This document shows positions 20,024-43,677 of a stretch of DNA of 64,000 bases, in pieces. A program made the position numbers and the translations under genes. The notes beneath the pieces were generated by a model, which saw nothing but the letters and a program-made list of their open reading frames with translations, was not told the DNA's origin and did not search any database. Positions within the stretch are counted from its first letter, which is position 1. Each line of letters begins with the position of its first letter. Where the stretch lies: contig JACCVY010000247.1 in assembly GCA_013697915.1 (NCBI GenBank), positions 62,001-126,000 of the forward strand. The letters run 5' to 3'. The DNA is from Blastocatellia bacterium. GTDB taxonomy: Bacteria > Acidobacteriota > Blastocatellia > Pyrinomonadales > Pyrinomonadaceae.

Positions 20024-21961
20024 TTAATCCAAAAACTGTCGCTGCCAAAGCTCAAGTGTCAACAACTGAAACACCTGAAGATTGTAATCCTCGCGGCCGG
20101 AAAGATTCGCGTCGATGATGGGACGCACTTCGTCGGGCCGAAACAATCCCCGGCGGCGGATTGTTTCTTCCGACAAGAGATCGTCAACCATTGGACGCAG
20201 CGGACCGCGCAGCCAGGAACGAATTGGCGCGCCAAAGCCCGCCTTCTTACGCCACACAACATCATGCGGCAACAATTTTTCCAGCGCGCGCTTGAGGATA
20301 TATTTCCGTTTGAAGCCGCGCAGTTTCAGTTCCGGCGGCATAGAGGCAGTGAGCTCAATCATCTTGCGATTGAGAAAAGGCACGCGCACCTCAAGATTTG
20401 CGGCCATCGAAGTTTTATCTGTAGTTATCAAATTCAAACAAGGCAGAAAAGTTTTTAGATCGACGTAAAGCAAACGATTCAACGGCGCGGCGTTTTCCAC
20501 GCGCGCAAAGTAACGACGATGCGCGGCATAAGCATCAAGGTCGCGCGTGGAGCTGCGCATCCCGTCGGAATAAAGTCGCTGCTTCATCTCATCGGTAAAG
20601 TAAGTGCCGTATCCCAGGTATCGTTCTTCAAAGTCGAGACCCGCACTGCGCGCAAACTTTTTGGCGTTACGCAATGGCGCCGTCAAGCGTCCCGGTAATC
20701 CGCCCGGCAACGTCCGCGCCAACGTCTTCATCAGCGGACGGCGCAACATTCCGGGCACTGGATCAAAGGCGCCGGCAATCTTCATTGCGAGCTGGCGTGG
20801 ATAGCCGGCGAAAACTTCATCACCACCCATGCCGGACAACATGACGCGCAGCGTTTCGCGCGCGGCTTGAGAAACCAGATAACTCGGTATGGCCATGTCT
20901 ATCGCCGGCTCGTCCAGGTGATAGACGAGTTTCGGCAGCAACTCGGCGACTGCCGGTTGCAACATGGTCTCGTGATAATCGGTGTCCAGATGTTTGTTAA
21001 CGCGGCGAGCCCATTCGACGTCGTCGGGAATGATGTCGTATCTCAGGTCCTCCGATTCGATGCCGACCGTGTAGGTGGAAACTCTGCGCCCGTTGCTATG
21101 ACGCTTCATCATCGCCACGATGCCTGAAGAATCGATCCCGCCTGACAGAAACGATCCGAGCGGCACGTCGGCAACCATCTCCATGTTTACTACTTCATCC
21201 AGCGTTTCCAGCACGCGGTCCTGCCACCACCTCTCGCTGCGCCCTTCTTCAATTTCGTCAAACGAGACATCCCACCATTCGTCGATCTTGATTTGGTCCT
21301 GCTGGAACGTAAGTGCGTGAGCCGGAGGCAACGTTTTGACTCCGCGAAACAAGGTGTTCGGATCGGGCGCCCAAAGGAAGGTCAGAAACTGGTGAAGTGC
21401 TTCGGGATCGAGCGCCCGTTCAACGAGGCCCGTCGCGAGTATTGCTTTAACTTCCGAGGCGAAAATGAACAAACCCGGTTGGGTTCCTGCCGCGGGTTGG
21501 TAGAAATAATAAAGCGGCTTAATGCCGACGTGATCGCGGGCAAGTGTCAGCGCCCGTTCGTGGTTGTCCCAAACGGCGAAGTGAAACATGCCGTTGAGAC
21601 GCGGCAGACATTCCTTGCCCCACTCCGCAAATGCGTTTAGCAGAACTTCCGTGTCGGTTTCCGTTTGAAAGACATGGCCTTTGCTTTCAAGTTCTGCGCG
21701 CAGCTCGCGATAATTATAAATCTCGCCGCCAAAAGTCAGAACGTAACGGCCGTCAGCCGAAAGCATTGGTTGGTGGCCGGCCGAGCTGGTATCGATGATT
21801 GCCAGACGGCGATGGCCCAGGCAGGCGCGACGTCCGGAATCGTCAATTATTTCTGAGGTCCAGACGCCTTCATCGTCACGGCCACGATGCTCTATTGCCA
21901 GCGACATTCCGGCGATGTGCTTGGTTGGCTCAGCAGAGATTATTCCAGCAATGCCGCACAT
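20024..21961 (-). CDS. asnB: asparagine synthase (glutamine-hydrolysing), first copy
   Basis: MCGIAGI N-terminus (start placed there), SGGIDSSGIVAMM PPi motif, GMGGDEVFAGYPR. Confidence 0.93.
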   Translation of the reverse strand: MCGIAGIISAEPTKHIAGMSLAIEHRGRDDEGVWTSEIIDDSGRRACLGHRRLAIIDTSSAGHQPMLSADGRYVLTFGGEIYNYRELRAELESKGHVFQTETDTEVLLNAFAEWGKECLPRLNGMFHFAVWDNHERALTLARDHVGIKPLYYFYQPAAGTQPGLFIFASEVKAILATGLVERALDPEALHQFLTFLWAPDPNTLFRGVKTLPPAHALTFQQDQIKIDEWWDVSFDEIEEGRSERWWQDRVLETLDEVVNMEMVADVPLGSFLSGGIDSSGIVAMMKRHSNGRRVSTYTVGIESEDLRYDIIPDDVEWARRVNKHLDTDYHETMLQPAVAELLPKLVYHLDEPAIDMAIPSYLVSQAARETLRVMLSGMGGDEVFAGYPRQLAMKIAGAFDPVPGMLRRPLMKTLARTLPGGLPGRLTAPLRNAKKFARSAGLDFEERYLGYGTYFTDEMKQRLYSDGMRSSTRDLDAYAAHRRYFARVENAAPLNRLLYVDLKTFLPCLNLITTDKTSMAANLEVRVPFLNRKMIELTASMPPELKLRGFKRKYILKRALEKLLPHDVVWRKKAGFGAPIRSWLRGPLRPMVDDLLSEETIRRRGLFRPDEVRPIIDANLSGREDYNLQVFQLLTLELWQRQFLD

Positions 21962-21972
21962 AAATAAAAATA

Positions 21973-22135
21973 GTGCTGAGTTATGAGTTGAGTTATGAGC
22001 GTCAAGAAGTTCAGAGTTCAAGCTTTAGCTTGTGTTTTACCAGCGCAAGAGCAACCTGAAGGTTGGAATCTGAACTTCTTGACGCTCATCACTCATCACT
22101 CATCCCTTATCACTCATCACTCATCACTTTTCTAG
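21973..22135. repeat. compound inverted repeat with heptameric arrays (TGAGTTA ... ATCACTC) around AAGCTTTAGCTT and CAACCTGAAGGTTG palindromes
   Basis: Outer arm 1 tgagttatgagttgagttatgagcgtcaagaagttcaga; outer arm 2 tctgaacttcttgacgctcatcactcatcactcatcccttatcactcatcactcatcactt. Confidence 0.88.
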
Positions 22136-26901: not shown

Positions 26902-28053
26902 ATGAAGCCTGTAATCCATTTAGCGCTCACACATGATTGGGAACTGCGTGGCGACGGTTCGGGCGATATCGAACAGATTCAGTTTGCGCCGATGCGGCGT
27001 TTGCTGAAACTTTATGGCGCCTTCGGAATCCGCACCACGTTTTTTCCGGATGTGATGCAGCAACTTGCCTTCAGAGAACTGGAGAGCGGGCACCCTGAAC
27101 TAAAGAAACGAGCCGATTCATGGGATCAACACGTGCGCGATGCCTATCAGCAGGGTCACGACGTTCAATTGCATCTTCATTCCCAGTGGGATGATGCAGT
27201 CTACGATTCCGGCAAATGGCAACTGCGCGGCAAGTGGTCCATCCTGGATTATGACCCGGGCGTTGCGTATCGGATGTTGAAATCATCCAAAGAATATTTG
27301 GAGCGGACTTTACGTTCTATCGATCCAGCATATCGTTGCCAGGCCTTTCGCGCGAGCGCGCTCGCCCTCGCTCCTTCTCCTCATCTGCTTCAGCAACTGG
27401 TCAACCTGGGAATAACTCTCGACGTGAGTCTGGCTCCAGGCCTTCACCTAAACACGCAAAATCTGGAACTTGACTATCGGGAATGTGATTCAACATTTCT
27501 TCCGTTCTATCCGCAAATGGACGACGCTCGTCGAATCTCACGCAACCGGGAGCCAATAATCTGCGCACCGATTCACACATTTCGGGCGTCGCGTTACGGT
27601 GTTTCCAAACAAAACCTGTCCCTCCTAGGAAGGAAAATCAAAAACGACATGGAAGTGATGCTTTCGGGCGCAGATCGAAAAACCGCTGAAGACTATGGAA
27701 ATAAACAATGGCTGCCTAAGGGCCGCTCGTCCCCACTCGCACAGGCTTATGAAAAGGTCATCCTTCCCGGTCTTAAAGGAAAGCATTTTGTTTCCGACAC
27801 AGCCCGCCTCAGCTATTCGCTGCTGGATGAGATGCTTAAAGACATTCGCCGCCGTGCGTTGGCCTATGGCTTGGCCCAGGTACCCGTGGTGCTGATAAAC
27901 CATCCGAAAGAGATCAACAACTATTCCGCAATTGAACGCTTCATCAGCGAAGCCGCGCGGGCCGACGACATCAAGTTCATCACCCTCTCGGAATTGACGT
28001 CTAAGTTACAAGACGGGGAGTTCTACGTGGCGAGGCGCTCACACGATAAGTGA
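26902..28053 (+). CDS. polysaccharide deacetylase-like protein
   Basis: ALTHDWE, GHDVQLHLHSQWDDAVY, CQAFRASALA; similar to the central module of 32614..35439. Confidence 0.7.
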   Translation: MKPVIHLALTHDWELRGDGSGDIEQIQFAPMRRLLKLYGAFGIRTTFFPDVMQQLAFRELESGHPELKKRADSWDQHVRDAYQQGHDVQLHLHSQWDDAVYDSGKWQLRGKWSILDYDPGVAYRMLKSSKEYLERTLRSIDPAYRCQAFRASALALAPSPHLLQQLVNLGITLDVSLAPGLHLNTQNLELDYRECDSTFLPFYPQMDDARRISRNREPIICAPIHTFRASRYGVSKQNLSLLGRKIKNDMEVMLSGADRKTAEDYGNKQWLPKGRSSPLAQAYEKVILPGLKGKHFVSDTARLSYSLLDEMLKDIRRRALAYGLAQVPVVLINHPKEINNYSAIERFISEAARADDIKFITLSELTSKLQDGEFYVARRSHDK

Positions 28054-28131
28054 GTGAGTAACTTGGTTCAATTTGAACTTTTAGGTTCGAAGGACCGGGA
28101 GTTAGTCGCCCGGCCGTGAAGGCGGTGTAGT

Positions 28132-29070
28132 TTAGTGATGGCTTGCGAGATATTCCTGAGAGTAAACAGCCCGCGGGTAGCAAGTGATTCCGTTCTTCGC
28201 AAGCCGCAGCATCTCGACAAAAAGTCCGGCCGCATCGACTCTCAAGAACTTCATCCCCTTGATGTCCAGTTCCTGGCTCAACGCCTCCGGAATGTAACTC
28301 TTCATGTAGCGCTCCGCATTGTGACGATTCCCGATGTCCATGTTTTGCGCATAGGTCTCAACAATTTCCGTCTCGCCGCAATAGTTAATACAAGGCGCTT
28401 TGAAAAGCTGCGAATGATATATCCGGACCGGGAAATCATCCTTTAAGGCATCGGCCACGCAGTACGTGAACGAGAGACTGGCATGGCCCACTCCGAGTCC
28501 AATAATTTTGGCGTTATGTTCAACGAGCTTGAAAAAAGGGCTGCCCTTGTCATAGGGGTACGGCGAATGTTGGTGCGTGGCGGTCAACTCTTTGGCCAGC
28601 GGGCCGATGGCGCAAACTGATTTTGTGGGATGAAGACTTCTTACGGCATCAGCGTGCCTCCGGGCAAACTCCGACAGGAGTCCCATATAAGAAGGCGTCC
28701 GGCGCACATTAAACACATGTCCTTGCAGCAGGTATTGGTAAGAAGAAATGCGATGATTGGAGTAGGTGGGGAAAAGAACTGTGCCTTGCGGGCCAATCGC
28801 GTCTCGAATCAACGCGATGATACGATAAAAAGGGAAGCCCAGATTGAGCTTATCGACCGAGCTGTGAACAAAGACAGTGTCTCGCTTACCTAAACCCAGA
28901 TCGTTTGCCAGAATATCTGAAAAATCAGTTTCACCGAGAACTGGGAGCCGAGCGATTCGAGCCTGTTGAAGTTTATGTTTGGAGCGCCTAAGCGACGCGA
29001 CTGCGCTTGCCGGTAATACTCTCCTCGCAAAAGCTTGAACGCTCCTTTTCATGTGCTTAACAACCGGCAC
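28132..29070 (-). CDS. AAC(3)-fold N-acyltransferase
   Basis: LGKRDTVFVHSSVDKLNLGFPFYRIIALIRDAIGPQGTVLFPTYS, HPTKSVCAIGPLAKELTATHQHSPYPYDKGSPFFKL. Confidence 0.82.
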   Translation of the reverse strand: MPVVKHMKRSVQAFARRVLPASAVASLRRSKHKLQQARIARLPVLGETDFSDILANDLGLGKRDTVFVHSSVDKLNLGFPFYRIIALIRDAIGPQGTVLFPTYSNHRISSYQYLLQGHVFNVRRTPSYMGLLSEFARRHADAVRSLHPTKSVCAIGPLAKELTATHQHSPYPYDKGSPFFKLVEHNAKIIGLGVGHASLSFTYCVADALKDDFPVRIYHSQLFKAPCINYCGETEIVETYAQNMDIGNRHNAERYMKSYIPEALSQELDIKGMKFLRVDAAGLFVEMLRLAKNGITCYPRAVYSQEYLASHH

Positions 29071-29079
29071 TTCCCGGCG

Positions 29080-29391
29080 CTAACCAATCTCTCTCGGCAA
29101 CAGGCTTTCGAGATAGTCCGTTAAACTTCCGAGAGTGGTGAACGGGCTATTTTCTTTCGATATCAGATCATCGTCTACTCTAATCGCTATTTCGAGGTTG
29201 AAGTCCTCTTTGATCTTCTCTTCAACTTCCATAATAAACTCTACGAAATCCAGCGACGTTTCAAAGGCGCTCGATTTTCCGTACAAAATAGTTTCCGGCG
29301 ACTTCTCCAGCTGAACCGCTTTTGGAAGCTTGCGGTTAATCTCATCCACCGCGCCGTAAATCGCCTTCATAATCTTTTCTCGATTAGCCAT
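29080..29391 (-). CDS. acyl carrier protein-like protein
   Basis: FETSLDFVEFIMEVEEKIKEDFNLEIAI resembles a phosphopantetheine-Ser helix II; small acidic protein. Confidence 0.75.
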   Translation of the reverse strand: MANREKIMKAIYGAVDEINRKLPKAVQLEKSPETILYGKSSAFETSLDFVEFIMEVEEKIKEDFNLEIAIRVDDDLISKENSPFTTLGSLTDYLESLLPREIG

Positions 29392-30986: not shown

Positions 30987-32642
30987 TTAGTTGCCGTTTA
31001 GCCACGATTCATAAGCGGTCAGCACGCGCTCGGCATTGTGTTTCCAGGTGTAATGCAACGCAACTGCTTTTCTTGCCGCTGAACCGAGACGTTCGCGCAA
31101 CTCGCGCGAACCTGCAAGACGCATAATTGCATCCGCCAACTCTCGCACATTACCTGGTTCTACCAGTAACGCAGTCTGCTCATGATCCAGCAGATCTCCA
31201 ATTTGGCCCAGCCTGCTGGCAACGATCCCTTTGCCCATCCCCATATACTCGAAGAGCTTCGTAGGCGAGCCAAAAAAGTCAGCTCCTTCAGCGAGCGGGA
31301 CATGCGGCGATACCAGAATGTCACAAGCGTCAAGAAATGCCGGCACCCGTCCGTGCTCAACGGCGCCGGTGAAGATCACGCGCCCGGCTTTGACCTCTGT
31401 GCCCAGGCGACGGCTCATCTCACCCTGCAGGGCGCCGGCGCCAATCAGGACAAAGCGCAGCGGCAATTCAGCCGGAATCAATTTGATCGCTTCCGCCAAC
31501 TCCAACACACCGTGCCACGGCCCAAACGTACCGACAAAGCCAACCAGCACTTCACCGTCTTGGATACTCAACTCAACACGCATCCGATCACCACCAACAC
31601 CAGGACGGAATACGTCGATGTCTACGCCATTTGGATTGACGACGATCTTTTCGGGTGGGACGCCGGCGACTTCCAGGTTGTTTCGCTCGACGTTGGAGAC
31701 GACAAAAATACGCGCAGCCGCGGCCAGGTTCAAACGCTCGTAGCGCGCCAGCAGGTCAAGCTTACCGACACGATCCCAGTGGCGTCCGAGCCACACTTCC
31801 GATCCGTTGTATTCGAGAAAGAGTGGACGATTTGTGCGCAAGGTTGCGACTACGCCGGCCCAGCTAAATCGAGCGTAACGTTGATAGATAAAATCGGGCG
31901 GGTCCTCTTCAATAAGATCGACAGCGCCGCGCGTTAAGACCTGGTTGTTGTGAATGTCGAATACGGGACGGGTCGTCCCCTGGGGCTCCGGACCAATGAT
32001 CGTCAACGGAATCTTCGTCTCAGCAATGCCGGCTATCGTGTCGTTGCTGATGAGGTGTACGTGCGCGCCAAGCTCAAGCAACCCTTCGATTACGCCCTTG
32101 ATATGACTCGATGCTCCACCTCCCTGCGTTCCTGGAGCAGGTGTAGCGCGCAGGTAGATGATGCGGTGCTGAGGGTCCGCAACCCTCGTGTGCTTTGGCA
32201 GAATACTGTCAGGGCCAGCGGATAGGGCCGCTCTTTTTTCTATCTCAGTTTCGAGTTGTCGCAACTCGCGCCGCGCCCTTGTCAACGTGGCTGCACTCGA
32301 CATGGCTTCACCTACGATTCTTGGGAACGCGCGTAAGAGAAGACGAGCGCGCGACTCTAATCGTAACGCACCATAAGCATCCAGAATCCCACTTTGTGAC
32401 GCGCCCGCCAGCGCGCCAAACAACATGAAGAGGTTTTGCCCGCGCTGCCACTCAAGCCGCTCTGTAGCCACAATGAATATGTCTGGACGGCGCGCACGCA
32501 AGGTAGCAAAACGCTGAGGGAGACTGCCGCCTTCAAACTCTGCGCGCGTGATTTCCTCGATCGAGGCTTGCGGGAAACGCTCTTCGAGCGCTTCGAGTGC
32601 ATTCTGAACTCGGCTATTGAGCACTAGCAGGATGATTTTCAT
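30987..32642 (-). CDS. glycosyltransferase group 1 (GT4), start at MKIILLVLNSR
   Basis: VGFVGTFGPWHGVLELAEAI, GRVIFTGAVEHGRVPAFLDACDILVSPHVPLAEGADFFGSPTKLFEYMGMGKGIVAS. Confidence 0.9.
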   Translation of the reverse strand: MKIILLVLNSRVQNALEALEERFPQASIEEITRAEFEGGSLPQRFATLRARRPDIFIVATERLEWQRGQNLFMLFGALAGASQSGILDAYGALRLESRARLLLRAFPRIVGEAMSSAATLTRARRELRQLETEIEKRAALSAGPDSILPKHTRVADPQHRIIYLRATPAPGTQGGGASSHIKGVIEGLLELGAHVHLISNDTIAGIAETKIPLTIIGPEPQGTTRPVFDIHNNQVLTRGAVDLIEEDPPDFIYQRYARFSWAGVVATLRTNRPLFLEYNGSEVWLGRHWDRVGKLDLLARYERLNLAAAARIFVVSNVERNNLEVAGVPPEKIVVNPNGVDIDVFRPGVGGDRMRVELSIQDGEVLVGFVGTFGPWHGVLELAEAIKLIPAELPLRFVLIGAGALQGEMSRRLGTEVKAGRVIFTGAVEHGRVPAFLDACDILVSPHVPLAEGADFFGSPTKLFEYMGMGKGIVASRLGQIGDLLDHEQTALLVEPGNVRELADAIMRLAGSRELRERLGSAARKAVALHYTWKHNAERVLTAYESWLNGN

Positions 32643-35439
32643 AGCCCGCTTTAATCTTCCAGAAAGCTTGACGGGCCCGCCCGGCCGCCGAACGGGTCTC
32701 GTAGTCAACCTTGAAGCATCTCTCAAAAGCCCACTTCGTACAGTACAACTCATAGCCACGCTCCCGGAATCGCTCATCCGGCTCGCGCTGCTCAAACACC
32801 GGCAAGGCCAACTCAGGGTCAGCGACCAATTCTGTGAAAGCACGCCCGTTGAAGTAGACGTTGCACGTCGGGTCTGTCAGATGCCAGCGCCCGTCTATTT
32901 CCACTTCGATCATCGAGTGCGTATCTGTCTGCTCGGCCCCGCGCCCGCGCGGGTGTGGCTTCATTAAGAAGGTCACTCTTCGGGTTCGATAATTCTCGCG
33001 CTCCAGCAGGTACTGGAAAACTTTTGTGTAGCCCGCACACCAGGCGAAGCCACCGGCGATGATCTCCAGCGGACGATTAGAGGACTGGTTCTGCTCCGGG
33101 TGGAGATGATGATAAACCCAGTCCATTATTTCCAGCAGACGCTCTACCTCGGAAGCCGCTCCCGCACGCTTCCAGCCCCGCAAATAGATCATCTTGTCGT
33201 TTGAAGGTGGATAGGGAGCAAGCCCGAATCGGCGACGCGTGTCAATCTCATCAATCTCGACATTGACGAAACCGGCTCGCGCCAGCCGCAGGCTCACTTC
33301 ATGCGGCGCGGTTTTCCAGGTGTGATTGTCACGCCCGCGCTTCGGGTTACGCGCGTCGCTCGCGATAGCCGCCACCAGGACGCCGCCATATTTGAGCACC
33401 CGGTTGACTTCGAGTAACGCTCGATCCACGTCATACGAATATTCCAGAACGTTGTCGGCGAATACACAATCAAGGGAGCCGTCTGAAAATGGGAGTACAG
33501 CAAAGTCTCCCGCCAGAAAAGAAATCTTCGCGGAAGCGTACCGGCTTTGAGCCTGTCTGATCAAATCCGCGCCGCAATCCACACCGATGAGCCGCATCCA
33601 CGGATACAATTCTGCGATACGAGCCGACGAGTAACCCTCGCCACAACCGAGATCCAACACCTGTCCACGATCAAGCGGAATCATTTCTTGCAGGTGATGG
33701 CTCTGTGCCTCATTGCGCTCCTCACCGAGAATCGCCTGATACTTCTTCTCGACTGGATGTTCATCTTCTTCCAGAGCGTTGCGGCGCGCTCTTGCCTTAA
33801 GTTCTTCCAGCGCTATCGCTGCCATCTCGGAAAGCGTGAGAAACTCAAAACGCGCATCGGCCTTAAGCCGTCGAAAGTTCTTTGCGATGGCATCAAAATG
33901 TAAATCGGCTTTCGAATGGCTTATCATCACAAAAAATTCATGACCGGCAAGATTTTCCTGTTCGAAACCCGTCATGAAATCAGTCAGCTTCCTGGGCAAG
34001 AGCGAATGCAGGCCGCGATGCGCAGGCGTCAGGCGCCGGTGCGCGGCGCTCAGAGCTGATTTGAGCCATTGACGCCGACGGTAATCTTCGCTTCCAGGCG
34101 CACTCTCCGCCTTATTTACAAAGCTAAGGAGACGCGTGGCGAACCGCTTCCCTTCCTCGCCGTCTAAAGACCATCGCTGATTCCACTCATAAGTGAAGAC
34201 CGGCAATTCGATCAGACTCTGTTCGCTCGGCGGCGCTTTTAGCTGCGGGTCGTAAGGGTTAGCGAAATATGGACGATGACTCGAATAAGCGAGCGAGTAA
34301 TCGTACCCTCTCTCGCTGGAGACGCCTCCGGCATAGACAGACGTCTCGCAGAAGATTCCGTTTGCGACCAGAGCATCGTGCAATTTTCTGAAAGGCTGCG
34401 TCGCGTAAGCCCCGGCGCGAAAGCAGGTCACGCGATAGGCCGGGGCAACCCGGCGCAGCACATTCTCAAGCGCCGCTTTGCACCTGCCGATCAACTCCAC
34501 CACGTCACCTGGATAATTGCAGATGCGAGCCAACGACCAATCCCAAAACCATTCGCCGTTCGCGTGGCTTGCGCCCAACTCGGGTAGCCAGTTCGGATGC
34601 AAGTGCATTTGCACATCGTGGCCGCGACGGATCGCCTGGGCCCACTGTTGCTCCATGCGTTCGGCGAGCGTCGGGCGGTTCTCTCTAAGCCAGAAATACT
34701 CTCCCAGCTCAGCCATTAACGTCAGCTTCACCTGCTCCCCATCGCTGATCCGAAGCAATTGATCCGTAGGCTGAAAGACATCCCGCTCCCAGTCGATAGT
34801 CTTACCTTCGGGGATGGGATGCCAGGTTTCGTAATCGATGGTGATGGCGATGAGATGTCTTTTCCGGCGCGCGACAAAGACAGCATGCTGGCTCTCCAAA
34901 AAATACTTCTTCTCAATGACGAAGTACTTTTCCACCAGCCGCTTGAATTCGTCGAACTTTAAATACTTGCTACCGGGGCTCCATCCGGCGATGAACGCCA
35001 GACCATCTTTTTCCAGATGCTCCGCGATCCATTTAAGCGATGTACGCTTGCCGCGCTCGTCGAGATAGTAGATTACATCGCTGTAGATGATGGCGTCGTA
35101 GAGGCGCTCGCCGGCCTCGGTCTGATCCAACCGGTCGGCTGAGCCTTGAATAAATTTGATGCGTGGATGTAGCTCTCGGGCTTTGGTAATCGCTTCCCGG
35201 CTCACTTCGACGCCGAACAATTCCTGAAAATCATTTTCCAGGCGCGAGAGGAAAGCGGCCATGCCGCAGCCTATGTCGAGGACGGTTCCGTTGGCGCGGG
35301 CATGGGCCGTGATGAGCTTGTAATAGAAATTGTACCTGTCGGAATCGGCGCGCCCGATGCCCCAGGGGTCTGACTCTGTCTGGTAAATCTTTTCAAAGTT
35401 TCGCGTGACCTTCATAACTCTTAACGCCCTGGCTGGCAT
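32614..35439 (-). CDS. 941-aa multimodular protein: SAM methyltransferase - polysaccharide-deacetylase-like - SAM methyltransferase - transglutaminase-like
   Basis: VLDIGCGMAAFLSRLE; ITIDYETWHP and GHDVQMHLHPNW; VLDLGCGEGYSSARIAELYP; FAWCAGYTKVFQYLLERE ... THSMIEVEIDGRWHLTDPTCNVYF. Confidence 0.85.
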   Translation of the reverse strand: MPARALRVMKVTRNFEKIYQTESDPWGIGRADSDRYNFYYKLITAHARANGTVLDIGCGMAAFLSRLENDFQELFGVEVSREAITKARELHPRIKFIQGSADRLDQTEAGERLYDAIIYSDVIYYLDERGKRTSLKWIAEHLEKDGLAFIAGWSPGSKYLKFDEFKRLVEKYFVIEKKYFLESQHAVFVARRKRHLIAITIDYETWHPIPEGKTIDWERDVFQPTDQLLRISDGEQVKLTLMAELGEYFWLRENRPTLAERMEQQWAQAIRRGHDVQMHLHPNWLPELGASHANGEWFWDWSLARICNYPGDVVELIGRCKAALENVLRRVAPAYRVTCFRAGAYATQPFRKLHDALVANGIFCETSVYAGGVSSERGYDYSLAYSSHRPYFANPYDPQLKAPPSEQSLIELPVFTYEWNQRWSLDGEEGKRFATRLLSFVNKAESAPGSEDYRRRQWLKSALSAAHRRLTPAHRGLHSLLPRKLTDFMTGFEQENLAGHEFFVMISHSKADLHFDAIAKNFRRLKADARFEFLTLSEMAAIALEELKARARRNALEEDEHPVEKKYQAILGEERNEAQSHHLQEMIPLDRGQVLDLGCGEGYSSARIAELYPWMRLIGVDCGADLIRQAQSRYASAKISFLAGDFAVLPFSDGSLDCVFADNVLEYSYDVDRALLEVNRVLKYGGVLVAAIASDARNPKRGRDNHTWKTAPHEVSLRLARAGFVNVEIDEIDTRRRFGLAPYPPSNDKMIYLRGWKRAGAASEVERLLEIMDWVYHHLHPEQNQSSNRPLEIIAGGFAWCAGYTKVFQYLLERENYRTRRVTFLMKPHPRGRGAEQTDTHSMIEVEIDGRWHLTDPTCNVYFNGRAFTELVADPELALPVFEQREPDERFRERGYELYCTKWAFERCFKVDYETRSAAGRARQAFWKIKAGYENHPASAQ

Positions 35440-36667
35440 AAATGTAACAAAGCAGGAGCACCACGCCGTAACTAATCAGGGAAGATAGAGCCGCGCCGCG
35501 AATCCCCAGGCGAGGGATGGTCAATGCGTTCAGCAAAACATTCAAAGCCGCACCGATGATCCAAATGTAAACGGAGAACCAGGGTGAACCGATGGAAGCC
35601 AGATAGTTAGCGAACATATTGTTCACGGCGTAAAATATCATCGCCACGCTCAGAATCAAAAAAGGACCTACCGACGGAAGAAAGGCCGCTCCGTACAGGA
35701 TGCGAATCAAGGGCTGGGCCAACAACATGAGCAACACGACGAGCGGGCAGACTAACAGTCCAACGCCCAGAGCCGCTTTTCGAGTCATCTGCCATTTCGC
35801 CTGTACATCCGCGAGCGCGGAAAGCTTCGGGAACAAAATACTGCCAACCACCGCCGGCAGAAGATAGATCAAATCCGCCATGTTGGCCGCAATCGAATAA
35901 TAGCCAGTCTCGGTTGTGCCGAGCAGATACCGAATCATCAGCAAATCTACGCGCAGCATCAAAAAAGCGAAGAAGGCCCCGAGGTAAAGTTTGATGCCGT
36001 AACCAAGATTCGCCTTGAGAAGCAGAAACGAAGGTCGCAAACTCCTCTCGATGCGGGCGCGCAATTGCCACAAACATCCCAAAAAACTTGCGAACATCGC
36101 GACCAGGCTGGCGGCAAAAATATTCTCTACGGTTGCAAACCCTGAGACCGCCACGCATCCGACGAAGACCAGTGCCAGGATCCTGCTCGCCAACTCAATC
36201 TTGTTGAATGCGCGAACTTCCTGAATGCCGAGCAGTAAGTTCTGCAGCAACATGAAAGCGAGACCAAAGGGTATCCACACGAGAGCCAGGCCCAGAAGCA
36301 AGCCGTGCACTGGAGCCGAATGAGGCCACACAGAAAAGACGATCCACGCCAGGCCCGCGCCCGCACCTCCGAAAACAAAGCTAAGCAGGAGAGAATTTCC
36401 CAACAGAGGCGCGAGCAAGCTACGGTCCCGCGCGACATGATAAGTATTTGAAGCGTGGAGTCCGAGGTTGCCAAACTGCATGCCCAGGGCTCCGACGGTA
36501 GCAGCAAGCGCATACAAGCCGCGACCTTCAGGCCCGAGAGTTCGGGCAATCAGCACGTTCATCGCGATGCCGATTCCGACAAGTATGAGGCGGGTGCCGA
36601 AAGTTTCAGCCACTTTGCGTGTGAAATCGGAACCCATCAGCCGGCGGTAGAGTTTATTGGCGGTCAT
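35393..36667 (-). CDS. oligosaccharide flippase (Wzx/MATE-like); frame open to 36751, start placed at MTANKLYRR
   Basis: 12 to 14 hydrophobic segments, ARTLGPEGRGLYALAATVG, YYSIAANMADLIYLLPAVVGSILFPKLS. Confidence 0.88.
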   Translation of the reverse strand: MTANKLYRRLMGSDFTRKVAETFGTRLILVGIGIAMNVLIARTLGPEGRGLYALAATVGALGMQFGNLGLHASNTYHVARDRSLLAPLLGNSLLLSFVFGGAGAGLAWIVFSVWPHSAPVHGLLLGLALVWIPFGLAFMLLQNLLLGIQEVRAFNKIELASRILALVFVGCVAVSGFATVENIFAASLVAMFASFLGCLWQLRARIERSLRPSFLLLKANLGYGIKLYLGAFFAFLMLRVDLLMIRYLLGTTETGYYSIAANMADLIYLLPAVVGSILFPKLSALADVQAKWQMTRKAALGVGLLVCPLVVLLMLLAQPLIRILYGAAFLPSVGPFLILSVAMIFYAVNNMFANYLASIGSPWFSVYIWIIGAALNVLLNALTIPRLGIRGAALSSLISYGVVLLLCYIYASQGVKSYEGHAKL

Positions 36668-36751
36668 TTGAACAGCACGATTGCGTGGGGGTGAACAGCT
36701 TGAGCCTCCTTGCTCGCCGTGGTCCTGTGGCAGTACAGTTCCGCTCTCCAT

Positions 36752-38686
36752 TCACCGCTCGCCATCGATCCAGCGCTCATACCACAAACTTAAATTTAGC
36801 AGGACCCATAGATGAGCACCCCAATCACGAGCGCCGCGCCGATGCTCATCTAAAAGGCGCGCCACGAATGAGTAGTCCAGGAAGTCGCGTCGTCGCATTT
36901 TGGAGTTCATAAGGTGCGCATCAAACCATGGGCCCAGATCGTTTCGGAACCACTCGCGAATCGGCGCGCCAAACCCGCGCTTGCGGCTGTAGAGAAGATC
37001 GTGCGGCAAAATATCTTCCAGAGAGCGTTTAAGGATGTGCTTGCCACTCGCGCCTTCCACTTTCAGCGAGCGCGGCAACGCCATCGCATATTCCACCAAC
37101 TTGTGATCGAGGAAAGGAACGCGCGCCTCAACTGAAGTGGCCATCGTTATTTTGTCCACCCGCATCAGCAACAGCTCAGGCAACCGCAGTTTCAATTCGA
37201 GATATGTCATGCGCGTTAAGAAATCAGACTCGGGACGCTCATGAGCAATATGCTCGAGGTGACGATTGATGGCCTCAAGCGAAGAGCTGCCTTGCCAGCG
37301 CTTACGCATCCCGGGCGAGAGCACTCGCGGCTTAAACGTTTCATCGTAGACCACGGCTCCGCCCCAGAATAAAGGCTCGTTTGCACCCAGCCGGCGGATC
37401 AACTCAATAGCCCCGCGTTTACTTCCCGTGGCCTCGAGGGCGGGCCGCGCCAGCGCGCTTGCGGCACGCCGCATTGACCGTGGAAACTTTTCGGCGTGCC
37501 GCCAGAACTTTTCGTAGATATTCAAGTACGTTACGTAGTTCGCGTAGCCACTGAAAATTTCATCTGCGCCCTCGCCTACCTGCACTACGATGGTTCCCGA
37601 ATCGCGAGCGAGTTTCGATACGTAATACAGAGGAATACAAACCGGATCGGCAATCGGCTCGTCCTGATGGAATACCAAAGCCGGCAGAAACTCCTGCATC
37701 TCTTTTTCTGAGATGATTACTTCATGATGATTCGTCCCAAACTCGTTTGCGATGCGCCGCGCTGAATCAAGCTCGTTAAGATACTCGGCATCCTTGAAAC
37801 CGACAGTGAAAGTCTGAACCGGACGCGACATCTGCTCCGCCATCAAGGCAACGTTCGCTGATGAATCAACCCCGCCGGATAAAAACACGCCGAATGGCAC
37901 ATCAGACATCATTCGCTTCGAGATAGATTCCCGCAACAGTCGCAACACCTCTGCTTTGTGTTCTTCATCGTTACGGGGTGGGAGGGCAGCCGCGGGCGGC
38001 AACGCATCCCAGTATTGCCGGATGCGTGTCGAGCCGTCCCGGCCCACTACCAGCATGTGTCCCGCCGGCAACTTCTGGATGTCGCGAAAGAGAGTTTGTG
38101 GTCCTGGCGTAGTAACGAAAGTTAAATAATGATAGAGCGACTCTTCGTCAACCTCGGCGGTCACCGCCGGGTGGGCCAGAATGGCTTTGATTTCGGAAGC
38201 GAAGATAAAGCGCCCATCGCGTTGATAAAAGTAGAGCGGTTTTACTCCGAGGCGATCACGCGCCAGCACCAGTTGCTCGCGCTTAGCATCCCAAAGCGCG
38301 ATGGCATAGTCGCCCTCGATCTCATTAACAAAATCGAGACCGCGCTCTTCGTACAGATGCAGAATGGTTTCTGAATCGGTGTGGGAGGCATAAACGTGGC
38401 CGCGCTGTTCCAGGCCTGCGCGCAGCGAAGCGTGGTTGTAAATCTCGCCGTTGAAAACCAACCAGACGCGATCGGTGCAACCTCGCATCGGCTGGTGGCC
38501 GGCCGCGGACAAATCGATGATCGACAAACGGCGAAAGCCTAAACCACCGCGACCTTCGTCAAAGATATGCGCGCCGGCATCGTCCGGCCCACGGTGTGTC
38601 ATCACATCGCGCATCCGCTCGACCAGCGCACGCTCGATGCGGCCTTCGCTAGCTCCATACTCCCAAACTCCGCAGATGCCACACAT
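36752..38686 (-). CDS. asnB: asparagine synthase (glutamine-hydrolysing), second copy
   Basis: MCGICGVWEYG, SGGVDSSANVALM, EGADEIFSGYANY. Confidence 0.93.
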   Translation of the reverse strand: MCGICGVWEYGASEGRIERALVERMRDVMTHRGPDDAGAHIFDEGRGGLGFRRLSIIDLSAAGHQPMRGCTDRVWLVFNGEIYNHASLRAGLEQRGHVYASHTDSETILHLYEERGLDFVNEIEGDYAIALWDAKREQLVLARDRLGVKPLYFYQRDGRFIFASEIKAILAHPAVTAEVDEESLYHYLTFVTTPGPQTLFRDIQKLPAGHMLVVGRDGSTRIRQYWDALPPAAALPPRNDEEHKAEVLRLLRESISKRMMSDVPFGVFLSGGVDSSANVALMAEQMSRPVQTFTVGFKDAEYLNELDSARRIANEFGTNHHEVIISEKEMQEFLPALVFHQDEPIADPVCIPLYYVSKLARDSGTIVVQVGEGADEIFSGYANYVTYLNIYEKFWRHAEKFPRSMRRAASALARPALEATGSKRGAIELIRRLGANEPLFWGGAVVYDETFKPRVLSPGMRKRWQGSSSLEAINRHLEHIAHERPESDFLTRMTYLELKLRLPELLLMRVDKITMATSVEARVPFLDHKLVEYAMALPRSLKVEGASGKHILKRSLEDILPHDLLYSRKRGFGAPIREWFRNDLGPWFDAHLMNSKMRRRDFLDYSFVARLLDEHRRGARDWGAHLWVLLNLSLWYERWIDGER

Positions 38687-38756: not shown

Positions 38757-40892
38757 TCAATTGGCAACCGCCTTTGGAACTACTCTCAGTCGCACCTCCA
38801 AATTTTCACCAGCGCACACCGGCACAAGCGCCCACAGCAACTTCGTCGGCACGCTTCGCTCGAGCGTCCAACAGGCCGAAATCGAAGGATTCCTGGAACC
38901 GTAATGCCTCGAGCTAAAAAGGCTCTCGAAGACTGGCTGCTGAGGCAAACCTATAGCTTGCACCAGCAACTGTGAACCGGTCGTGTTATCACGTGCCGAA
39001 ACAACACCTTCCCTCTCGATGGCGATGTCCAGGCCGGAGTTAAAGTGAAATCGCGCGGCTATCACATGCTTTCCTTTGCCCAACAGCTCGTCTTCAATCA
39101 GCCACCAATGATCCCTTTTGAAAAACTTGACCGACCGGCGATGTCTCACGCCGTTCGTTAGTCGTTCGTAGCCGGCGTGCTCCGCGACAACATGATCGCT
39201 CTCCGGCCCTGTTTCCCAAAGCAGCACCTTGGGACGGGCCTCGTCGCCAATTACAAACGGAACCAATTCCTCAGTCGTGTTTTGTTCGACGCCGTCTAAT
39301 TGGATCGTCGAATGATAGGCCGTCGAGCGAAAGAGGTGACGCTCGTGCAAATCGGCGGTGTAAACATAAGCGCCGGGATCGACGATGAACGGACAGCCAC
39401 AAGCGCTGACGTCGATGCTGAGCGCATCGTTATGCCCATGGGATCCGCGACCGTTTGCACCGGCGCCGCCGGCATTGAAAAGAAGAAACAGATCCTCGCT
39501 CCTAAGCGAATGGATTCCCGCCTCAGGGAAAGCCTGCGACTGCAGCGGGTCAGGATTGGTCTTCAGGCTCTCGTATTCCCTCAGCCCTTTCTCGCCCAAT
39601 ATCCATAACAGTTCTTCAGAAACCGGCTGCCCCGGAAGTTTGAATTGCGAGTCTCCGAAGACAACCGCCCCGATTGGCAGCAGATAATCGTGTTCATCCG
39701 CCGCGCGAGAAACCAGCGGAAAGACTTGCCCGCCATCGGTATCGCCGACCAGGGGCGCTGTTTGATCGGGCCGCAAGTAACCACGTAAATAAACGAGCAT
39801 CGAGTGAAGCGTACGCCAATATTTTTCTTCGATGACGAGATTAGTCGTGCGACACAGAATGAAGGAGTAGAGGAATAACTCCAGCACGAAACGATGATAA
39901 CCAGTTGATGCTTCGAAGTCGGCTCCATCAGCAAGAATCTGTTTGTCCATCTCGCTTAGCATTTGGCCGAGCGCCCATTCGCGCCATTCAGCCGCTGTCT
40001 TCAGCTCAGGCAACGCGATTCCAATCCATAACAAGCCCGCAACGTCTGATAAGTAATGATTGCTGGTGCCGATGTGGGAAAACTCGAGGTTGCGGCGAAT
40101 GTGCGCTCCGTGCTGGTCGAGCATGGTGAGAAAACCCGCTAACCTTTCTGCGGTGAGACCGGGAGAGTGGCGGAAGAGCGAGAACGCTCCCAGCAGATTC
40201 ATGGCCCGCAATGCGACTTCCATCGGGCACGACCAGTTAGCACCGCGCCCGACCGGGTTTTGTTCTCGCCAACTTTCGAACTGCGAAAAATATTCTCCTG
40301 CAAACTCCTCGTCTTCGGTTAGAGCATAAGCGCGTCCCAGGGTTAGGAGTTGACCAAGGCGATTTAGTTCCCACAAAACTCGAATGTCCGACCCGTCGTT
40401 GTGCCACCGGGAAATGTCAGCGTGATAATCAAGCGGCCAGGTTCTTCCGGAAAGAGGATCGCGATGCCAGTCAATCGAGTGCCCAAAATCCTTTTCGCCA
40501 AAACCCAACAGCGGCCAGCGATGTTCTTTAACAATGACCCGGGCCGATTCGATCAGTCGCTCGGATTCATTAGGAAAAAGATCTTGCTGCCTCGCCGCGG
40601 TGGAGCGCGACAGTTCAAAACCGGGCAGAAATGAAGGCGCAGCTCGTTCGCGAAAGTGCTTTAGGAGATCGGATGAGGAGAGGCTTTCAAATTCCGGTCG
40701 CAGCCGCGCGCTTTGCGAACTAAGTTCGTCAAGCATCGCGCATTCGCGGCGCGATTTCACCCTCGCTCGCTCTCGGCGAAAAGCCTCGCGCAGACCTCCG
40801 ATGAAGCTTATTCGGCCACTAAGCACGCTGCGAATACCCGTCAGCAGGAACTTAATGCGTAGTTTGTTGGAACGCTCGGAAGAGTTTGGCAA
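38757..40892 (-). CDS. heparinase II/III family protein
   Basis: NWSCPMEVALRAMNLLGAF, NLEFSHIGTSNHYLSDVAGLLWIG, GSHGHNDALSIDVSACGCPFIVDPGAYVYT. Confidence 0.9.
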   Translation of the reverse strand: MPNSSERSNKLRIKFLLTGIRSVLSGRISFIGGLREAFRRERARVKSRRECAMLDELSSQSARLRPEFESLSSSDLLKHFRERAAPSFLPGFELSRSTAARQQDLFPNESERLIESARVIVKEHRWPLLGFGEKDFGHSIDWHRDPLSGRTWPLDYHADISRWHNDGSDIRVLWELNRLGQLLTLGRAYALTEDEEFAGEYFSQFESWREQNPVGRGANWSCPMEVALRAMNLLGAFSLFRHSPGLTAERLAGFLTMLDQHGAHIRRNLEFSHIGTSNHYLSDVAGLLWIGIALPELKTAAEWREWALGQMLSEMDKQILADGADFEASTGYHRFVLELFLYSFILCRTTNLVIEEKYWRTLHSMLVYLRGYLRPDQTAPLVGDTDGGQVFPLVSRAADEHDYLLPIGAVVFGDSQFKLPGQPVSEELLWILGEKGLREYESLKTNPDPLQSQAFPEAGIHSLRSEDLFLLFNAGGAGANGRGSHGHNDALSIDVSACGCPFIVDPGAYVYTADLHERHLFRSTAYHSTIQLDGVEQNTTEELVPFVIGDEARPKVLLWETGPESDHVVAEHAGYERLTNGVRHRRSVKFFKRDHWWLIEDELLGKGKHVIAARFHFNSGLDIAIEREGVVSARDNTTGSQLLVQAIGLPQQPVFESLFSSRHYGSRNPSISACWTLERSVPTKLLWALVPVCAGENLEVRLRVVPKAVAN

Positions 40893-41175: not shown

Positions 41176-42261
41176 TCAAAGGGCGTCGACAATGCGCTCT
41201 GCGGTGTGGCCATCCCAGAGCGGAATGCTAACAGGTTTTTTCGAGGTTTCGCTAAGCGCGGTTAAAGCCGCAGCAATGATCTTTTCGGGATCTCTTCCGA
41301 CGATCTGATTTGTTCCCATCGAAACCGTGATCGGTCGTTCGGTATTTTCCCTTAACGTCAAACAGGGAATGCCCAGGACGGTCGTCTCCTCCTGAATGCC
41401 GCCGGAGTCTGTCAGCACCAGCCGCGCGCTGCTGTAGAGACTGAGGAAGTCCAAATAGCCCAGCGGATCGATCAACCGCAAGCCCGGGGTATTTGTAATT
41501 CGGTCTCTTAGTCCCAGTTCCGCAATCATCTTCAGCGTACGTGGATGGACCGGGAACACTATTGAAATTCGACGGCCAATTTCTTCCAACGCTTCGAGGA
41601 TGCGCGTGAGAGTTTGCCGGTCATCAACATTTGCGGGCCGATGCAGCGTCAGGACCGCATAATCTTTGCCGCGTAGTCCCAGGTCTTCTTTGGTGGTTGA
41701 TTTATCCGCAAGCGGAAGATACTTGAGCAGTGAGTCAATCATCACGTTGCCCACAAAACGTATTCGTTCCGACGGAATGCCTTCGTTGGCCAGATTTTGA
41801 TCGGCATCCTCGGAAGGCGTAAAAAGTAGATCCGCGATCTGATCAGTCAGGACTCGATTGATCTCTTCCGGCATGGCGCGGTCGCGGCTGCGTAGCCCCG
41901 CTTCTACGTGCGCAACTTTAACACCCAGCTTCGCACAAACAAGCGCGCAGGCGAGCGTTGAATTGACATCCCCAACCACCAGCACCCAGTCGGGTTTTTC
42001 GCGCACGACAACTGGTTCAAAGCTTGCCATGACCGCCGCTGTTTGCGCCGCATGCGAGGCCGAACCGACGCCAAGATAAACATCAGGTTGCGGCAGCTCC
42101 AGATCGTGGAAGAAGGCGTCGGACATGGTTGCGTCGTAGTGCTGTCCCGTATGAACGACAAGCGGCGAAAACTCTCGTTCGCGCCGCGTCATTGCTTCCA
42201 CGATTGGCGCGACTTTCATGAAGTTTGGCCGCGCGCCGACGACGTTAATTATCTTGAGCAT
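41176..42261 (-). CDS. wecB: UDP-N-acetylglucosamine 2-epimerase (non-hydrolysing)
   Basis: GARPNFMKVAPIV, VHTGQHYD, VHVEAGLRS-like AHVEAGLRSRDRAMPEEINR, TDSGGIQEE. Confidence 0.94.
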   Translation of the reverse strand: MLKIINVVGARPNFMKVAPIVEAMTRREREFSPLVVHTGQHYDATMSDAFFHDLELPQPDVYLGVGSASHAAQTAAVMASFEPVVVREKPDWVLVVGDVNSTLACALVCAKLGVKVAHVEAGLRSRDRAMPEEINRVLTDQIADLLFTPSEDADQNLANEGIPSERIRFVGNVMIDSLLKYLPLADKSTTKEDLGLRGKDYAVLTLHRPANVDDRQTLTRILEALEEIGRRISIVFPVHPRTLKMIAELGLRDRITNTPGLRLIDPLGYLDFLSLYSSARLVLTDSGGIQEETTVLGIPCLTLRENTERPITVSMGTNQIVGRDPEKIIAAALTALSETSKKPVSIPLWDGHTAERIVDAL

Positions 42262-42339: not shown

Positions 42340-43677
42340 TTACAACCTGATTATCCGCGCGCTACTATCACGTCTCAAATCACCGTTCAGTGCGTTTCGC
42401 GTATCGACGATTAGCGAACCAAGCCGGCAAACCCGCTGGTAATCAATCCCGGAATGGTTTGTAACGATCACGATGCAGTCGGCCGTGCGCAACTCATCAT
42501 CTGTTAACGGTACTGAGTCGAGGGGCTGCCCACCGCCTTCCGTGTGGGCGTCTTCAAATCGCACTTCCTTTACGAATGGATCGTGATAACTCACCTCAGC
42601 GCCTTTCGTGCGCAACCGATCGATAATAGACAACGCCGGGCTCTCGCGGACATCGTCTATGTCCTGCTTGTAAGCCACGCCGAGCAGCAGGATGCGCGAA
42701 CCTTTCATCGACTTGCTTTCGTCGTTCAGGCCGTCCGCGACGAGTTGGACCACATGATCGGGCATGCGTGAATTTACTTCTTCCGCCAGCCCGATGAAGC
42801 GAGAATCGAAACCATGTTGGCGGGCCTTCCAGGACAGGTAATGCGGGTCCAGCGGAATGCAATGGCCGCCAATGCCCGGACCCGGATAAAAAGCCATAAA
42901 ACCAAACGGCTTGGTGGCGGCCGCGCGAATCACTTCCCAGGTGTCGATGTTCAGCGCGTAACAGAGTCGCGCCATCTCGTTTGCCATGCCAATATTTACC
43001 GCGCGAAAAGTGTTTTCCAACAACTTTGCGGTTTCGGCAACGCGGGCTGAGCTGACTGCGTGTACCTCGTTGACGATCTGCGAATATAGAAATGCGGCAA
43101 CGTCGGTTGAATCCGAGGTCACGCCGCCAACAACTTTTGGAATGTTATGCGTTTGAAATTGCGGATTACCCGGATCGACGCGTTCCGGCGAGAAGGCGAG
43201 CAGAAAATCCTCGTCAAGCTTCAATCCGCTCGCTTCAAACATCGGCAACAACACTTCATCAGTCGTGCCCGGATACGTGGTGGATTCAAGAATGATTAAC
43301 TGACCGCGATGAAGGCGCTGTTTGATTTCGTCAGCGGCGGCAAGAATGTAGGAGACATCCGGCTCCTTGGTCTTGCGCAAAGGCGTCGGCACGCAAATGA
43401 TGACGGCGTCGCAATCCTGAAGTTGATCAAAATCAGTGGTAGCGCTGAGACGCTTACTGTCAACCAGCTCCTTGATGACTGACCGGGGCACATCACCGAT
43501 GTATGAATCGCCGGCATTGATCCGCGCGGCTTTATCCGAATCAACTTCGAAACCAATGGCTTGAAATCCAGCGCGTGCGAACTCTGTAAGTAGGGGCAAG
43601 CCAACGTAGCCCAGGCCCACGACCCCGATACGGGCACGTTTCGCTTTAATTGAAGCAGTTATTTGTTCCTTGACCAT
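42340..43677 (-). CDS. nucleotide sugar dehydrogenase (UDP-GlcNAc/UDP-Glc 6-dehydrogenase family)
   Basis: IGVVGLGYVGLPLLTEFARAGF, ESTTYPGTTDEVLLP, FAFYPGPGIGGHCIPLDPHYLSWKAR-like motif. Confidence 0.93.
   Translation of the reverse strand: MVKEQITASIKAKRARIGVVGLGYVGLPLLTEFARAGFQAIGFEVDSDKAARINAGDSYIGDVPRSVIKELVDSKRLSATTDFDQLQDCDAVIICVPTPLRKTKEPDVSYILAAADEIKQRLHRGQLIILESTTYPGTTDEVLLPMFEASGLKLDEDFLLAFSPERVDPGNPQFQTHNIPKVVGGVTSDSTDVAAFLYSQIVNEVHAVSSARVAETAKLLENTFRAVNIGMANEMARLCYALNIDTWEVIRAAATKPFGFMAFYPGPGIGGHCIPLDPHYLSWKARQHGFDSRFIGLAEEVNSRMPDHVVQLVADGLNDESKSMKGSRILLLGVAYKQDIDDVRESPALSIIDRLRTKGAEVSYHDPFVKEVRFEDAHTEGGGQPLDSVPLTDDELRTADCIVIVTNHSGIDYQRVCRLGSLIVDTRNALNGDLRRDSSARIIRL

Follow-up and report, generated by a model that had tools for sequence, protein, structure and literature searches.

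A four-module protein with methyltransferase, NodB-fold and transglutaminase-like modules in an exopolysaccharide/O-antigen-type cluster of a Blastocatellia bacterium

What could a single polypeptide do with two methyltransferases, a deacetylase-like module and a transglutaminase-like module? The question is raised by an open reading frame (ORF) of 941 codons at 32614-35439, on the minus strand of the window (the whole 64,000-nucleotide stretch of Blastocatellia DNA analysed here). A preliminary description of this DNA, which did not give the strand, had quoted a set of motifs, and every one of them (VLDIGCGMA, VLDLGCGEG, GHDVQMHLH, CFRAGAYA and WCAGYTK..THSMIEV..HLTDPT) is found in the ORF. 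It had also named the four modules correctly and in the right order, namely methyltransferase, NodB-fold, methyltransferase and transglutaminase-like (TG), and fold comparison now backs the two weak identities (NodB and TG). Its remark that no standard enzyme has this order agrees with our searches: the literature searches found no published account of the architecture among open-licence papers, and we found no library family that covers the whole of it.

Results

The ORF comes from a MAG in 271 contigs, which is a reason to consider that an assembly error or frameshift has fused separate genes, a danger that the preliminary description had pointed out. The probability of such an artefact is negligible. 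Coding composition is continuous along the ORF, and assembly error is excluded, because proteins homologous along their full length are encoded in independent genomes from several phyla. Their identity is 38-54%, and they come from further Acidobacteriota families, from Nitrospinota, Cyanobacteriota and Myxococcota, and from Beijerinckiaceae; the four-module architecture spans at least five phyla. Because seven other Acidobacteriota genomes, at 38-51% identity from end to end, and other phyla as well keep this order of modules, we take it to be more than chance. The full-length homologues align from Met9 (35415), and for this reason Met9 is probably the common start, with a predicted product of 933 aa.

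Both methyltransferases are recognized from sequence. MT1, the N-terminal module (aa 9-191; 34867..35415, minus strand), is a NodS-like class-I SAM methyltransferase with motif I VLDIGCG, matched by Pfam Methyltransf_23 and NodS. It is similar in sequence to the solved NodS structures 3ofj and 3ofk (E 1.5e-6), and against the NodS equivalog NF041650 it scores 39.5 bits, far under the cut-off of 300. MT2 (aa 552-737; 33229..33786, minus strand) is a second class-I SAM methyltransferase, with motif I VLDLGCG, identified through Pfam and solved methyltransferases; with the protein as query, the Pfam families Methyltransf_25, Methyltransf_11 and Methyltransf_31 match with E from 1e-28 to 1e-32.

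The NodB-like module (aa 192-548; 33796..34866, minus strand) is placed by fold comparison only. No Pfam family, and so no curated deacetylase profile, matched it or seven homologues beyond chance, and among solved structures neither it nor the TG module had a significant match by sequence or profile search. Foldseek pairs its AF2 model (pLDDT 93.0), at E from 5e-7 to 1e-5, with 3rxz, HP0310, ArnD and other polysaccharide deacetylases, known or putative, and as modelled the module has the NodB/CE4 fold. The candidate catalytic residues D202, E204, D275, H279, H281, R341 and H508 are kept in 64-66 of the 66 aligned sequences. Motif 1 of the CE4 family is defined as TFDD, with a general base Asp and a metal Asp (PMC6415152); here it reads TIDYE, with a Glu two positions past the first Asp where TFDD has the metal Asp, and D202 and E204 are present in all 64 ungapped rows. 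The CE4 motif 2, H(S/T)xxH, does not occur: the His pair of GHDVQMHLH is spaced HxH and is invariant in 66 of 66 sequences. The earlier term ‘deacetylase-like’ thus holds for the fold and fails for motif 2.

For the C-terminal TG module (aa 738-941; 32617..33228, minus strand; triad C801-H841-D856), the same fold comparison supported a Pfam call. Transglut_core (PF01841) matches the isolated module with E 9.6e-6 and 26.3 bits against a cut-off of 23, and it was matched in all eight of the first homologues; all 16 sequences compared carry Cys801, His841 and Asp856. The AF2 model (pLDDT 84.8) puts C801 at the start of a helix and H841 and D856 on successive strands, and Foldseek finds TglA, vasohibin carboxypeptidases, a putative cysteine protease, NAT, PNGase and PeiP. 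Going by this model, the module is a transglutaminase fold; its Pfam NAT match is weak (E 0.1).

To judge by the gene content, the four-module gene sits in an exopolysaccharide/O-antigen-type cluster, and its homologues usually adjoin surface-sugar genes. Its end is overlapped by a GT4 glycosyltransferase (30987..32642, minus strand; Pfam Glyco_trans_1_4/Glyco_transf_4), whose start, the ATG of MKIILL, was chosen by inspection, and its start by a Wzx-type flippase (35393..36751, minus strand; Pfam Polysacc_synt_3, 2.6e-21; 11 TM-like segments). Beyond these, all on the minus strand, lie an AsnB-type glutamine-dependent amidotransferase (36752..38686; Pfam Asn_synthase, TIGR01536 over cut-off), a protein of the heparinase II/III family, a uronic-acid lyase family (38757..40892; Pfam Hepar_II_III_N and Hepar_II_III_C), a WecB-type UDP-GlcNAc 2-epimerase (41176..42261; TIGR00236 over cut-off) and a nucleotide-sugar 6-dehydrogenase nearest to UDP-ManNAc dehydrogenases (42340..43677; TIGR03026 over cut-off, NF040825 and PRK11064 strong yet under cut-off). 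The epimerase and the dehydrogenase suggest UDP-ManNAcA-type sugars. A second copy of the AsnB-type amidotransferase is at 20024-22021. Across loci the conserved neighbours are Wzx, GT4, HepII/III and often AsnB, and Wzx adjoins nearly all TG-module loci where the neighbour is visible; AsnB is not obligatory, since in one acidobacterial family (f23) neither AsnB nor GT4 was found adjoining the four-module gene. Coupling to an exosortase, as in the XrtA/PEP-CTERM exopolysaccharide system, was considered and rejected: PF09721 had no match in this 97% complete genome, and TIGR03108, the amidotransferase of that system, scored under its cut-off.

The modules also occur in other combinations. Three-module forms are found in Bacteroidota and a two-module NodB-TG form in Bacterium 1xD8-48, which is not a MAG; loci L033 and L039 have no in-frame MT1, and L038 has NodB-TG alone, with a separate NodS-like gene (L038:7855-8622) in the same cluster. 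An acidobacterial family (f51) has a GT4 gene fused to the C-terminus of the homologues (ORFs of 1454-1974 aa), AsnB-NodB-MT fusions occur in L048 and L045, and L036 contains a second NodB-like gene whose coordinates overlap those of a stand-alone TG gene. The TG module is rare, with 1 of 246 in a sample of the order of 1xD8-48, 1 of 299 in a Pseudomonadota sample and 5 of 346 in a Bacteroidota sample, one of the five being a weak match. Stand-alone TG genes with informative context are limited to L132, without clear surface-sugar neighbours, and a second, distant TG gene of L036. A plasmid search returned weak MT or NodB matches only.

Stand-alone relatives of the NodB module differ from the fused ones in the company they keep. 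One of them, NODB2, lies in the window itself (26902..28053, plus strand; 28% identity, E 1.8e-19) and converges with a gene for an AAC(3)-like N-acyltransferase (28132-29070, minus strand; Antibiotic_NAT, 5.7e-32). An AAC(3)-like, GNAT or ATP-grasp-like gene adjoins the stand-alone relatives in 28 of 68 loci and the TG-fused NodB in 0 of 12, a contrast with p 0.006 if kinship is ignored and with neighbour families picked after some of the loci had been viewed. All 19 of the AAC(3)-like genes found adjoin NodB. In the fused genes, TG may stand in for the N-acyltransferase.

Discussion

We propose that the protein works in the cytoplasm as a multi-domain enzyme that tailors glycans in a Wzx-dependent exopolysaccharide/O-antigen pathway, and give this proposal about an even chance of being right. 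The enzyme's target would be an amino sugar of the repeat unit, most likely HexNAc-uronic acid or the corresponding uronamide, from which the NodB module would strip an N-acyl (probably N-acetyl) group. MT1 and MT2 would add methyl groups to the amine so exposed, to the carboxylate or to hydroxyls, and the Cys-His-Asp triad of TG, working through a thioester, would make a new amide on or near this sugar. GT4, whether neighbouring or fused, would add the sugar, and Wzx would flip the completed unit. The substrate, the order of the steps, the acyl donor and the choice of amide formation over cleavage by TG are what we infer. The protein has no TM-like segment and no obvious signal sequence, and its N-terminus is non-hydrophobic, so action before flipping is expected. 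Both the overlap of NodB and TG genes in L036 and the AsnB-NodB-MT fusions count for a tailoring enzyme. The HxH spacing in NodB motif 2 and the f23 loci, with neither AsnB nor GT4 found adjoining the gene, count against it. The preliminary description had suggested that the protein may couple the modification of a sugar to attaching or cleaving an amide-linked group; this is plausible, and it gains indirect support because AsnB is in many of the same clusters, AsnB-NodB-MT fusions exist, and stand-alone NodB relatives often lie beside N-acyl- or amide-forming genes.

That TG forms the amide is supported by amide-forming genes often standing beside stand-alone NodB and never beside the TG-fused form. 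Transglutaminase folds also hydrolyse amides, and proteases and PNGase among the top Foldseek hits tell against amide formation. It is possible, if on balance doubtful, that TG acts as a PNGase- or peptidase-like amidohydrolase and takes an amide-linked group off the glycan or a carrier; NodB and TG would then be successive hydrolases, with the methyltransferases acting afterwards on the groups laid bare. The best structural matches of TG include vasohibin carboxypeptidases, PNGase, a putative cysteine protease and PeiP, a pseudomurein endoisopeptidase, and its homologue HvyA is described as belonging to a transglutaminase-like cysteine protease family and as needing its triad for capsule restraint (PMC4241560); HvyA, however, is periplasmic, whereas the four-module protein shows neither a TM segment nor an obvious signal sequence, and the pairing of stand-alone NodB relatives with amide-forming or acyl-transferring genes also argues against hydrolysis.

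Two further accounts concern the product. O-antigen chains with methyl caps are known from other pathways, and with this precedent, and with two methyltransferase modules next to polymer-assembly genes, the protein could be a chain-terminating enzyme whose methyltransferases cap the non-reducing end while NodB and TG trim or recognize the terminal residue. We consider this improbable: to our knowledge such caps belong to ABC-transporter pathways, whereas the four-module gene adjoins Wzx, and the methyltransferases are the dispensable part, as the reduced forms in L038, L033 and L039 indicate. It is very improbable that the protein makes a linker sugar by which surface proteins are attached, instead of a polymer constituent. 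The analogy with the Wbp/Vim pathway and four PEP-CTERM motif matches in the genome speak for it, and the lack of a PF09721 exosortase match and the polymer-type genes of the cluster against it.

Within the proposed tailoring enzyme, an unlikely version makes TG a cytoplasmic glycan transamidase. AsnB would convert the carboxylate of the uronic acid, or that of the acyl donor, to a carboxamide, which would be joined at Cys-His-Asp to the amine exposed by NodB, with loss of ammonia. If true, transglutaminase chemistry would make a glycan amide decoration or cross-bridge, and deacetylase, methyltransferases and the amide-joining site would share one polypeptide. If the tailoring proposal is right, the N-acyl groups of surface-sugar building blocks are edited by a single-chain enzyme that is conserved and has spread horizontally, the transglutaminase fold enters glycan assembly as an amide-forming enzyme, and polymers with methylated, re-acylated amino sugars would be indicated. 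The unfused and fully fused forms, including the Bacterium 1xD8-48 protein, are natural test pieces.

Known systems share parts of this design. Rhizobial NodB and NodS of Nod factor likewise combine a deacetylase with a NodS-like methyltransferase (NodS being an N-methyltransferase) on an amino-sugar oligosaccharide, but as separate genes, on chitooligosaccharide and without a TG module. ArnD (8t0j; lipid A modification) and WbmS (3hft; Bordetella O-antigen) have a CE4 fold like that of the NodB module and both are counted among the proteins of LPS or O-antigen synthesis, but they are single-domain proteins with 12-14% identity to it in structural alignment. Caulobacter HvyA is TG-like, with a Cys-His-Asp triad, and tied to surface polysaccharide; it differs in having one catalytic domain and in regulating capsulation negatively. 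Acyl transfer by a Cys triad, on a fold related to that of TG, is found in arylamine N-acetyltransferases and the amide synthase ShGdmF, and Foldseek matches them to the TG module with weak structural scores. By analogy, the best reading is that the four-module protein resembles the VimE, VimA and WbpS steps of the Wbp/Vim linking-sugar pathway of Porphyromonas gingivalis and Tannerella forsythia (PMC7468200), with a TG-fold enzyme replacing the N-acyltransferase. Common to both would be a putative CE4-type deacetylase, amide-forming acyl transfer onto the exposed amine, an AsnB-type amidotransferase and an N-acetylated uronic acid. The Wbp/Vim functions, in contrast, lie on separate genes without fused methyltransferases, VimE is likened to the NodB module by description, and VimA is an N-acetyltransferase/FemAB-like protein and not a transglutaminase fold.

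Architecture and spread of the four-module gene

The reading frame studied here lies on the minus strand at 32614-35439. Its start lies within the upstream Wzx gene, and because the alignment of full-length homologues with the window protein begins at Met9, the protein is probably 933 aa long and starts at 35415 (residue numbers here are those of the 941-aa frame). A preliminary description had read two methyltransferases and a transglutaminase-like part in this one frame, and Pfam recovers both: two class-I SAM methyltransferase domains (MT1 and MT2) and, when the C-terminal part (TG) is isolated, a match to Transglut_core, found also in 8/8 homologues. The second, NodB-like module has no family match in Pfam.

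The proposed order, MT1, NodB, MT2, TG, is real: full-length homologues with 38-51% identity are present in seven other genomes among the 297 Acidobacteriota genomes searched. When 84,980 named species are scanned with an alignment of the NodB module as query, all four modules are also found together in one Nitrospinae bacterium, one cyanobacterium and two MAGs, one deltaproteobacterial (Myxococcota) and one from Beijerinckiaceae. This order is new relative to the profile libraries and open-licence literature that we searched. The fused versions for which a neighbourhood search had been suggested also come in other sizes. The same scan returns shorter forms, with three modules (NodB-MT2-TG) in Bacteroidota and with two (NodB-TG) in Bacterium 1xD8-48; at the homologue locus L034 the three-module gene starts at a contig edge, and MT1 may be cut off. 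In the acidobacterial family f51 a GT4 gene is joined to the C-terminus of the four-module protein, giving open frames of 1454-1974 aa. In a tree built from the NodB-to-TG region the sequences from Acidobacteriota fail to form a single group, f51 being set apart from the others with strong support, which suggests that the four-module gene has spread horizontally. The TG module itself occurs only within the four-module fusion in 396 acidobacterial genomes and is rare beyond Acidobacteriota.

Structure and motifs of the modules

The AlphaFold model of the NodB module has a pLDDT of 93, and Foldseek places it closest to putative polysaccharide deacetylases, HP0310 and ArnD. Across 66 relatives of the module, little or no variation is seen at D202, E204, D275, Q277, H279, H281, R341 and H508. 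The earlier reading of this module as deacetylase-like thus holds for the fold and is less secure for the active-site motifs: motif 1 is DYE where the CE4 consensus has DD, and motif 2 is HLH where the consensus has H(S/T)xxH (PMC6415152). Because both motifs depart from the consensus, we class the modelled module as NodB-fold, CE4-like.

For the TG module (pLDDT 84.8), the model places C801 at the opening of a helix and H841 and D856 on subsequent strands, and this triad is invariant in 16 sequences; together with the Transglut_core match, these results substantiate the Cys-His-Asp pattern first seen by eye. Foldseek matches TG, with modest scores throughout, to TglA, vasohibins, arylamine N-acetyltransferases, PNGase, pseudomurein endoisopeptidase and an amide synthase. 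MT1 is similar to the solved NodS structure (E 1.5e-6), with a score far under the NodS equivalog cut-off.

Gene neighbourhood

In the window, the four-module gene is surrounded by genes for Wzx, GT4, AsnB, HepII/III, a WecB epimerase and a nucleotide-sugar dehydrogenase closest to UDP-ManNAc dehydrogenases, while a second AsnB and two PMT_2-type membrane proteins lie farther off. The order AsnB-Wzx-[module protein]-GT4-HepII/III is seen again in f51 and in Nitrospinae, and in rearranged form in 1xD8-48; in a second acidobacterial family, f23, Wzx alone is retained beside the module gene, and AsnB is absent from some loci. Since the window protein has neither a TM-like segment nor an obvious signal sequence, it should act in the cytoplasm, ahead of flipping. 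The genome of the window's own MAG (97% complete) has four PEP-CTERM motif hits, and PF09721 detects no exosortase in it.

Partners of NodB relatives

Whether relatives of the NodB module have amide-forming or acyl-transferring neighbours is a question set by the Porphyromonas proteins VimE, VimA and WbpS. Among stand-alone NodB genes we find an AAC(3)-like neighbour in 18/68, a GNAT in 2/68 and an ATP-grasp-like gene in 10/68, with at least one of these in 28/68, versus 0/12 of the TG-fused genes (Fisher p 0.006, uncorrected for kinship and with neighbour families picked after some loci had been viewed). Positions 26902-29391 of the window hold one such arrangement, a stand-alone NodB relative with a convergent AAC(3)-like N-acyltransferase, together with an adjoining 103-aa frame that resembles an acyl carrier protein by eye (SLDFVEF) and has no Pfam match. 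Over 80 loci (L030-L109), the AAC(3)-like genes adjoin a NodB-family gene directly in all 19 of 19 cases, a pattern suggesting that among chromosomal 'AAC(3)' genes some encode sugar N-acyltransferases and do not serve in resistance.

Other partners are fused or overlapping. Desulfarculaceae-type MAGs carry AsnB-NodB-NodS-like methyltransferase triple fusions, and fusions of this type lie at L048:1093-5097 and at L045:3-2699, the latter with its start cut by the contig edge. At L036:1016-2904 a stand-alone TG gene shares an overlap with a second NodB-like gene, which has no Pfam match and was identified by eye; the pair lies some 7 kb upstream of that locus's fused gene with all four modules. 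Separate versions of the modules exist for both NodB (n=68) and TG, another stand-alone TG gene being in Bacteroidota at L132:9202-10176; its N-terminal part is unrecognised and surface-sugar neighbours are not evident.

Proposed function

The simplest reading of the four-module protein is N-acyl exchange, in which the NodB module would take off one acyl group, TG would make a new amide, and MT1 and MT2 would attach methyl groups. From the WecB, dehydrogenase, AsnB and HepII/III genes nearby we infer a HexNAcA or uronamide as substrate, and for the predicted TG chemistry we give somewhat more weight to amide formation than to hydrolysis. A possible counterpart of the window's NodB module is Porphyromonas VimE, a putative CE4-family deacetylase; there, VimA presumably transfers an amino acid onto the amine that VimE exposes, and the AsnB-like WbpS produces a uronamide (PMC7468200).
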